Assembly: GCA_017537565.1 (NCBI GenBank)
Contig: JAFYKQ010000118.1
Span: forward strand, 67,578-116,365
DNA: 48,788 bases
Direction: 5' to 3'
Source of the DNA: Flavobacteriales bacterium
GTDB taxonomy: Bacteria; Bacteroidota; Bacteroidia; Flavobacteriales; UBA1820
Under the pieces are notes generated by a model, which saw only the letters and a list, made by a program, of their open reading frames with translations, was not told the origin of the DNA and did not search any database. The position numbers and the translations under genes are program-made. Shown in pieces: positions 24,690 to 26,290 of this stretch (its first letter is position 1; each line of letters opens with the position of its first letter).

Positions 24690-24755
24690 AATATATACAA
24701 GAGTAGAAAGATAAAAACACCTCACACTCTTTCTGGATATAGAAAATTTTATAAT

Positions 24756-24785
24756 TTTGTAAAAACACAAAAAAAAATTCATTTG
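24756..24785 (+). promoter_or_regulatory. candidate promoter just upstream of the nested inverted repeat
   Basis: TTTG at 24756-24759 and TTCATTTG at 24778-24785 are 18 bp apart, the same spacing as the rpmH promoter. The -7 box has one mismatch to TAnnTTTG. The predicted start is near 24792, about 10 bp before the first arm of the inverted repeat. Confidence 0.45.
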
Positions 24786-24801
24786 CCTATGAAACACCGC
24801 G

Positions 24802-25022
24802 TATAGACAGATACGCATATTTTAGACATATTGGAAAAGCGTTTTAGCTTTATTCTGCATTCCCAGAAGTTTGGCGACTATATAGGAAAATCTGCAAGAA
24901 TATAGCATAAATGCTCACGTTATAGGCGTGGGCTTTTGGTTATTCTGCAGATTTAGGTTACGCCAAACACCTTGGGAAGCGAGTACACTGAAAGTGCCAC
25001 GCTTTTTTTATGCGTATCTATA
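24802..25022 (+). ncRNA. candidate structured RNA: nested inverted repeat of about 220 nt
   Basis: Four or more arms nest around one centre. AGATACGCATA (24809-24819) pairs with TATGCGTATCT (25009-25019). AAAAGCGT (24835-24842) pairs with ACGCTTTT (24999-25006). TCCCA and GTTTGGCG (24861-24876) pair with CGCCAAAC and TGGGA (24961-24977). AAATCTGCA plus GAATA (24888-24902) pairs with TATTC plus TGCAGATTT (24941-24954). GCTCACG (24913-24919) pairs with CGTGGGC (24927-24933) around a 7-base loop. A T7 run at 25003-25009 sits in the 3' half. A promoter-like sequence ends 16 bp before the element. It may be a free RNA, a leader of the gene at 25094, or a small mobile-element relic. It occupies most of the 404-bp gap at 24690-25093. 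Confidence 0.5.
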
Positions 25023-25093
25023 ACATAAATCCAGGCACACATGGAGTAACCGAAATGCCACAAAGTGAGTAGGAAATTTCAACAACAAAAAAA

Positions 25094-25660
25094 ATGAAAA
25101 GAATTTTATTAATTACCATTACTATATTATCGACACTCTATAGTCCAAGTGTCCTCTCACAAAATCTTTCAGCCTACGGAGTTACGTTAGGCGAAGACAA
25201 GTATGATGTTGAAAACGTATTAGAAAACAAAGGGAAGAGCATCAAATATGATACAAATAAAAAAGGAAATGCTGTATTAAGAATTTCCTATCCACGCATT
25301 GGAGATGCGGATTTTGATAATGGAACATTCGTATTTAACGATGATGACGAATTATACTCGATAAGTTTTAGTTCTGTCGATGGTGGCACAGGAAATCCAG
25401 GAATGCCCTGGGAAGCCAAGTTTCATAGAAAAGCTGAAGAATGCAAAAATGCTTTTCTAAAAATGGCTCAAAATTTATTAACTAAATATGGCTCCCCCGA
25501 TACTTACTCAAACACCAGTGCAATATGGCAAAAAGGAAATGAAAGAATCTCTTTAGAATATGATTATAAATATGAATATAATCAGTTTGGTTGGGTAGAT
25601 CATCACGTGAGTGTCTTACTCAAATACGAACAGATAGATTTAGACAATGCGGATTATTAA
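25094..25660 (+). CDS. exported protein of unknown function
   Basis: The 188-residue protein has a signal peptide (MKRILLITITILSTLYSPSVLSQ) and a mature part rich in Asp, Asn, Tyr and Lys. The phrase GVTLGEDKYDVENVLENKG near the N-terminus is followed by alternating beta-like stretches. It resembles in outline small Bacteroidota proteins in which a short sequence near the start predicts folding of a disulfide-free beta domain, but I cannot name the family. The gene is visibly more AT-rich than its neighbours and follows the nested inverted repeat by 71 bp. It is 115 bp upstream of another small exported protein. Recent acquisition is possible. Confidence 0.7.
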   Translation: MKRILLITITILSTLYSPSVLSQNLSAYGVTLGEDKYDVENVLENKGKSIKYDTNKKGNAVLRISYPRIGDADFDNGTFVFNDDDELYSISFSSVDGGTGNPGMPWEAKFHRKAEECKNAFLKMAQNLLTKYGSPDTYSNTSAIWQKGNERISLEYDYKYEYNQFGWVDHHVSVLLKYEQIDLDNADY

Positions 25661-25775
25661 ATAATCACTATATTGGTAAAATACACTCTTTGACAAGAAG
25701 AATCCTTGGAATAAATAAACAAACATTAAACACATTTAACATATAAGTAATAAACACAATAAATATAATTATCAT

Positions 25776-26216
25776 ATGAATAAAATCTCATTTACATTAA
25801 TTTACATAATGTCTATCTTATTGATATCCTGCACAGGAAGTAACCAAAAAACCTATTATAACAACCCCGAAGAAGAACTTTGTGCAATGATGGAAGAACA
25901 AGGTTGGGAACAAATTTCCAATAGCACCAATGTCTATCGGAAGGATCTTGATAAAATAACAACAGATGGTAAACGAACTTATAAAACAACTTATTGGTAT
26001 ACAGCTGCAGTGTATTGCAAAAAATCTGGAGACAAGACTAAATACATAATAGCAAGACCTGTCTATTCTTCTGAAGACAATGTACAAAGATTGAATGATG
26101 GAAAACTAAAATATAAATCTTTCTCCATTATTGACTGCCAATATACAGATAAATATGGCACCACATACAATGGCTATATTAGCGATGGTGGATCTACCGC
26201 TTATCTCAACTATTGA
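25776..26216 (+). CDS. small lipoprotein of unknown function
   Basis: This 146-residue predicted lipoprotein has lipobox LISC (Cys19, MNKISFTLIYIMSILLISCTG). The mature part begins with a Ser/Asn/Tyr-rich tether and then has a compact domain with EEELCAMMEEQGWEQI and several Lys/Tyr-rich strands. I recognise no motif or family. Codons are AT-rich like those of the preceding exported protein, and the two look like one small unit between an inverted repeat and a terminator. Confidence 0.7.
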   Translation: MNKISFTLIYIMSILLISCTGSNQKTYYNNPEEELCAMMEEQGWEQISNSTNVYRKDLDKITTDGKRTYKTTYWYTAAVYCKKSGDKTKYIIARPVYSSEDNVQRLNDGKLKYKSFSIIDCQYTDKYGTTYNGYISDGGSTAYLNY

Positions 26217-26259
26217 TTTTGTAGATAAAAAAAGACCATTCTTTATCACATAATAATAC

Positions 26260-26290
26260 AAAATACGCCGCCCAGTGGGCGGCGTATTTT
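26260..26290. terminator. bidirectional terminator
   Basis: AAATACGCCGCCC and GGGCGGCGTATTT form a 13-bp GC-rich stem with an AGT loop, flanked by A on one side and T on the other. It lies between the convergent lipoprotein (plus) and SGNH hydrolase (minus) genes. Confidence 0.9.

Follow-up and report, generated by a model that had tools for sequence, protein, structure and literature searches.

What does a long, nested inverted repeat encode when it lies just upstream of two small genes in the genome of a Flavobacteriales bacterium? A first-pass annotation of the window, by which we mean the entire 48,788-nt stretch of DNA analyzed here, had flagged the repeat as a candidate undescribed structured RNA that could be a small RNA, a leader controlling the gene at 25094, or a relic of a mobile element. 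We found that it is one copy of a large family of structured RNAs in Bacteroidota, without a match in Rfam. The RNA nature of the element is supported well enough to be nearly certain, and its location in cis is likely. Our main reading, to which we assign a probability of roughly 0.55, is that the gene at 25094 has this feature as its 5′ leader and that the feature represents a new Bacteroidota family of cis-acting structured leaders, working as a switch of the kind proposed below. The architecture is unusual for such a leader. The RNA class is large and widespread, has apparently not been catalogued before, and belongs to a phylum in which few RNA regulators are known although it is dominant in the animal gut.

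Anatomy of the element and selection on its RNA

The element is ordered from 5′ to 3′ as a TAnnTTTG promoter, a start-stop mini-ORF, an 11-bp outer stem (P1), a rod of ∼200 nt in which variable arms are combined with invariant loops, a U-run, a tertiary pairing, often a DUF805b-like module, and the gene, with RNA and downstream genes on the same strand (Table 1). All of the nested arms were recovered by inspection in the order and at the positions first proposed, including the perfect outermost pair, the 7-bp apical stem with its one G-U, and the run of seven Ts in the 3′ half. The 5′ strand of P2 opens a near-invariant box, AAAAGCGTTTTAGCTTTATTCT, that is conserved in 43 of 43 copies. Folding of positions 24780 to 25060 gave −85.7 kcal/mol, compared with −61.2 ± 4.2 kcal/mol for 200 shuffled sequences (z = −5.9), none of which was as stable, so the claim that the pairing exceeds chance held as well. 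The extent of the feature needed revision: the repeat is real, but the conserved unit is larger and adds the mini-ORF, the 3′ pseudoknot strand, and the DUF805b-like module.

Table 1. Features of the element and its downstream genes (positions in the window)
Feature	Position	Strand	Description	Basis
Probable −7 promoter box	24752..24759	+	TAATTTTG, Bacteroidota TAnnTTTG type	Read from sequence
Start-stop mini-ORF	24789..24806	+	ATG AAA CAC CGC GTA TAG (MKHRV*)	Frame statistics
H1 hairpin	24799..24816	+	GCGTAT/ATACGC; 5′ strand inside mini-ORF, 3′ strand is the P1 5′ strand	
P1 outer stem, 5′ strand	24809..24819	+	Pairs with 25009-25019	95.1% paired
P2, 5′ strand	24835..24842	+	AAAAGCGT; pairs with ACGCTTTT, 24999-25006	Arms and consensus structure
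Strand a	24851..24859	+	TATTCTGCA; 5′ copy of direct repeat D4; pairable with b, 24893-24902	
P3 rod	24857..24980	+		Strongest covarying column pairs of alignment; consensus structure
P3a	24857-24866/24971-24980	+	Variable helix	Within P3 rod
P3b	24869-24876/24961-24968	+	Conserved, GTTTGGCG/CGCCAAAC	Within P3 rod
P3c	24888-24902/24941-24954	+	Variable; includes arm pair 24888-24896/24946-24954	
Apical hairpin	24913..24933	+	GCTCACG...CGTGGGC	Conserved 43/43; two-sided changes in several pairs
Pseudoknot strand 1	24994..24998	+	GTGCC, bulged beside P2	Complement test across 81 copies
T7 run	25003..25009	+	3′ side of P2	T run conserved 43/43
P1 outer stem, 3′ strand	25009..25019	+		Arm inspection and P1 covariation
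Pseudoknot strand 2	25034..25038	+	GGCAC	Complement test across 81 copies
DUF805b-like module (RF02914)	25041..25075	+		20.0 bits, E 0.004, below cut-off of 35.6
First downstream gene, presumed regulated	25094..25660	+	188 aa, signal peptide	No Pfam match
Second downstream gene	25776..26216	+	146 aa, predicted lipoprotein; same acquired block	

The promoter also had to be reassigned. The sequence originally read as such, TTCATTTG at 24778 to 24785, is conserved leader sequence just 5′ of the mini-ORF, and the probable promoter is the next box upstream. In a set of 91 copies chosen by similarity around the ATG, a TAnnTTTG box occurred 22 to 52 nt 5′ of the mini-ORF in 60 copies, compared with 3.2 expected from shuffles. 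We had first suspected a leaderless mini-ORF, an idea that was abandoned once this box was located. Judged from the sequence, transcription would start near 24766, giving a 5′ UTR of ∼23 nt, which is the commonest 5′ UTR length in B. thetaiotaomicron (PMC7366714).

Support for an RNA fold came from aligning 43 diverse copies without reference to structure; in this alignment, 22 of 62 predicted conserved pairs carried two-sided compensatory changes, confirming the structured RNA that the first-pass annotation had proposed. A mutual-information scan that used no fold prediction peaked on the same helices, and P1 had two-sided changes in 5 of 9 pairs, a level reached in 0 of 500 shuffles. When a second subtype of 35 sequences was aligned separately, 14 of 22 predicted pairs showed two-sided changes. 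G-U outnumbered A-C in the conserved pairs (392 versus 23), and 163 G-U were still counted once pairs with G-U as their commonest state were excluded; the corresponding counts in the second subtype were 77 and 6. This large excess of G-U over A-C indicates that selection acts on the RNA made in the gene's orientation, rather than on a hairpin at the DNA level.

Covariation also extends to the tertiary pairing, in which GUnCC, adjacent to the U-run, pairs with GGnAC, 3′ of P1. This pseudoknot was tested on the sequences directly, since the aligner's placement of its 3′ strand was unreliable, and an exact complement was present in 56 of 81 copies, compared with 11.4 when partners were permuted (maximum of 25 in 2,000 permutations). 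The pairing reaches past the U-run.

Distribution of the family and history of the block

Three paralogues in the source genome (C66, C79, and C71) share short conserved boxes with the window copy, and their stem sequences differ yet still pair. Searches of relatives with blastn returned only scattered short matches outside the source genome because the stems diverge, so that finding copies required a gapped pattern, followed by a covariance model. The pattern AAAAGCGTTN(1-2)AGCTTTN(0-1)ATTCT, scanned across GTDB species genomes, identified more than 118 places among the matches listed, nearly all in Bacteroidota; groups represented among those matches were Rikenellaceae, Bacteroidaceae, Prevotellaceae, Muribaculaceae, Lentimicrobiaceae, Paludibacteraceae, Weeksellaceae, and Candidatus Symbiothrix. 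The few pattern matches outside Bacteroidota were without the rest of the structure, and one in Parasutterella was dismissed as chance, as the covariance model finds no copy there.

The covariance model built from the family (R1) already detects copies throughout the phylum. It scored the window at 196 bits, although the window belongs to its training set; outside that set, C79 scored 94.6 bits, C97 79.1, C71 55.5, and C98 49.3. Six clear copies and one weak copy were found in the source genome, and all 25 named Bacteroidota genomes tested contained copies, most of them 1 to 10. Copy number reached 19 in one Prevotellaceae MAG and 75 and 82 in two MAGs of the termite symbiont Candidatus Symbiothrix. 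A random draw across the phylum under strict prefilters gave copies in at least 17 of 296 genomes. The rod, but not the mini-ORF, was kept in distant copies from Flavobacterium-type genomes and others.

Some lineages showed peculiarities of their own. At Candidatus Symbiothrix loci, including L065 and L104, some copies are ∼700 bp apart and 5′ of similar small exported proteins (VTIG...GGLLLP); together with the copy number in these symbionts, this suggests an amplified surface-protein repertoire. In Flavobacterium-type copies (L182, L184 to L187, L197, and L198), the central arm is of another kind (AAAACTGGTAATTTT / GGTATACCAGTACC), and the strands of what may be the counterpart of P1, TTTGCGA / TCGCA, are >200 nt apart. 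The rteR sRNA (RF04181) occurs ∼1.4 kb upstream of one distant copy (L194:42-124), which suggests a conjugative-transposon neighborhood.

We compared the window with the closest relative (G002), in which the neighboring genes for bactofilin, DUF2461, and an SGNH hydrolase are present. Missing from that genome is a block of ∼1.6 kb between DUF2461 and a terminator, comprising the promoter, the RNA, and the two exported-protein genes. This lineage-specific block spans 24690 to 26260, and its flanking terminator is common to both genomes. The window RNA shares 91% identity with a Rikenellaceae copy over 235 nt, compared with 75% identity to the best paralogue in its own genome. Based on the absence of the block from the nearest relative and the identity to the Rikenellaceae copy, we conclude that the block was probably acquired horizontally. 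Transfer between orders is likely, given that a Weeksellaceae genome (L050/L124) belongs to the order of the source genome.

Such a history might be expected of a DNA-level element, that is, a hairpin recombination site or mobile-element end (attC-like, REP-like, or a transposon relic) that carries gene cassettes, and the lineage-specific insertion, the 91%-identical RNA in another order, and the 75 to 82 sometimes closely spaced copies in termite symbionts all fit that explanation. Against it stand the excess of G-U over A-C, which points to selection on the RNA of one strand, and the position of copies 5′ of genes with their own promoter. Neither a transposase nor constant ends accompany the element, no clear target duplication was seen at the block joints or at the empty site in G002, and plasmid and phage collections held no match to the family. 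We therefore regard a DNA-level element as very improbable. The idea of a mobile-element relic thus survives only in part: the RNA and its genes do form a lineage-specific insertion, but the repeat is not inert.

Downstream genes, alternative helices, and a proposed switch

The two genes that follow the element encode exported proteins, as had been predicted. In a Lentimicrobiaceae MAG (L088), a different copy of the RNA is likewise followed by a homologue of the first (34% identity, E 2e-19). Across the family, 75 of 83 first downstream ORFs (90%) were called exported, compared with 193 of 569 control ORFs (34%) from the same loci (Fisher p 1.5e-23), the call being an N-terminal signal sequence under a simple hydrophobicity rule. 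These downstream genes share no Pfam family; Big_2, PEGA, CsgG, Fib_succ_major, and DUF6567 were among the matches, and many had none. In the source genome, most copies are 5′ of genes for exported proteins or lipoproteins, and one precedes a nonexported GmrSD-like gene. Four distant copies (L188, L193, L199, and L201) are 5′ of genes for small proteins (68 to 95 aa) that belong to a single family (FTLMLNNGDIVKFTP-like) and appear to be cytosolic. The bias toward exported proteins suggests a shared signal for cell-surface remodeling.

These observations bear on whether the RNA could act independently of the gene. As a small RNA, the rod of ∼240 nt would end at the U-run and act in trans in the manner of 6S or FopS-type RNAs, with the gene reached by leakage; its own promoter motif, the rod fold with a conserved U-run, and the several paralogues per genome are consistent with this. 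However, P1 and the pseudoknot require sequence past the U-run, and both covary, so that conserved pairing extends toward a gene whose product is in most cases exported. In addition, the stems vary freely without a constant seed, and 6S, FopS, GibS, and other Rfam families were unmatched. A free-standing small RNA is thus a poorer fit, and we consider it unlikely; the leader controlling the gene at 25094 fits best among the three options raised initially.

The 5′ end of the leader carries the mini-ORF. In the 91 copies chosen by similarity around the ATG, a stop followed in frame within five codons in 90, whereas the other two frames had one in 7 and 46 copies. The encoded peptides were of 25 different kinds (MKHSV*, MKH*, MI*, MN*, MK*, M*, etc.), each of at most six codons before the stop. 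Some copies, those of the Flavobacterium type included, are without a mini-ORF.

Two sets of helices in the leader are mutually exclusive. H1 competes with P1; 87.7% of cells in the alignment are paired in H1, and its covariation was not above that of shuffles in subtype A. Similarly, strand b (24893 to 24902) can pair with either strand a (24851 to 24859) or strand a′ (24941 to 24954). The a:b helix was paired in 94.6% of cells, and doubly changed cells numbered 46, compared with 18 ± 6 in shuffles (0 of 500 as high), a covariation that may be partly secondary to b:a′. Prefix folding of the window RNA predicted H1 and a:b first, then b:a′, and then P1. One copy (L114:6248-6363, minus strand; R1 score, 77.7 bits) is missing the segment between two direct repeats (TTATTCTATC), which is what a deletion between strands a and a′ would give. 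No conserved local terminator hairpin was found before the U-run (mean z, −0.12), leaving simple attenuation by intrinsic termination unsupported.

We conclude that the element probably acts as an RNA switch for its genes. In the mechanism that we propose, RNA polymerase would first transcribe the mini-ORF and next the rod; the early helices H1 and a:b would form and then yield to the later strands in P1 and b:a′, and the completed rod with its pseudoknot, formed or not, would decide whether the mRNA for the exported protein is produced or translated. By melting H1, a ribosome engaged on the mini-ORF would gate the strand exchange, so that the likely input would be translation or growth state, or else a ligand or protein at the invariant loops. 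The gated exchange suggested by the anatomy, with a ribosome or else a bound factor as the gate, is a tentative proposal that we place short of even odds. Given the Flavobacterium-type copies without a mini-ORF and the lack of H1 covariation in subtype A, gating by ribosomes would not be general.

The invariant loops might instead recruit a protein. Under that alternative, the rod would bind an RNA-binding protein or antitermination factor that stabilizes, localizes, or permits transcription of exported-protein mRNAs, and the alternative helices would be mere folding intermediates. Invariant internal loops between variable helices, a single class of cargo, and the lack of a common metabolic theme pointing to a ligand are in keeping with recruitment, but none of the copies is associated with a partner protein, and recruitment alone leaves the mini-ORF and the alternative helices unexplained; we give it a small probability.

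Under the switch that we favor, one common signal would coordinate several unrelated exported proteins per cell. Its broadest form, which we hold to be rather doubtful, is a phylum-wide switch in which ribosome occupancy of the start-stop mini-ORF, regardless of the peptide, would steer cotranscriptional strand exchange in the pseudoknotted rod, coupling translation or export state to unrelated exported proteins and spreading with its genes. The mini-ORF and the alternative helices make the idea of a shared signal directly testable.

Comparison with known systems

Known RNA families, whose exclusion the first-pass annotation had put first, did not account for the rod. At the gathering threshold, Rfam 15 returned only a distant tRNA in the window, and matches in 49 related loci were limited to tRNAs, one rteR, and one DUF805b, none of them over the rod; weak matches such as mir-2807 were discounted as chance. 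No prior description was found among the papers searched, and large motif catalogs may hold fragments. One microbiome RNA survey (PMC8040213) contains thousands of uncatalogued motifs, and this RNA may have had an earlier mention among them.

The Rfam family that comes closest in position is DUF805b (RF02914), as a DUF805b-like module is directly downstream of many copies of the RNA; in the window, this module separates the rod from the start codon. Within the source genome, the two highest-scoring DUF805b matches are both directly 3′ of RNA copies (26.5 bits at C66), and a Bacteroidales copy (L059) has DUF805b above the cut-off at the equivalent place. However, DUF805b is 35 nt long and covers none of the rod, which its model leaves unscored. 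Because the rod was upstream of none of the 30 top-scoring DUF805b loci, we consider the two to be separate elements that are often combined. DUF805b is common in this order, scoring above the cut-off in 98 of 296 genomes with up to ∼20 copies, and at L019 to L048 it is found a short distance 5′ of start codons, often those of genes for proteins with signal peptides; the large RNA is missing from the top loci. The name DUF805b reportedly goes back to a 2017 survey.

Other known systems share single traits with the family. The 6S RNAs, including 6S-Flavo, are likewise rods of ∼200 nt with their own promoter, but the RNA described here has many divergent copies per genome, each 5′ of an exported-protein gene, and the 6S and 6S-Flavo models gave no match up to E 10. 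The FopS/GibS small RNAs of Bacteroides are also a multicopy Bacteroidota family linked to surface proteins (PMC11697453). FopS, a trans-acting RNA with an Rfam entry, consists of a single-stranded seed and a terminator hairpin, whereas this RNA is a rod located in cis. Integron attC sites are likewise long imperfect hairpins repeated beside small genes; in contrast, the RNA is 5′ of genes with a promoter and is under selection for RNA pairing, and attC core sites were not recognized in its arms. Ribosome-gated attenuators (trp/his leaders and erm/tet translational attenuators) likewise place a short leader ORF before mutually exclusive helices. Unlike in those systems, the leader peptide is unconserved, with variants down to M-stop, which argues against codon or peptide sensing; no conserved local terminator precedes the U-run, and the leader contains a ∼200-nt rod with a pseudoknot.
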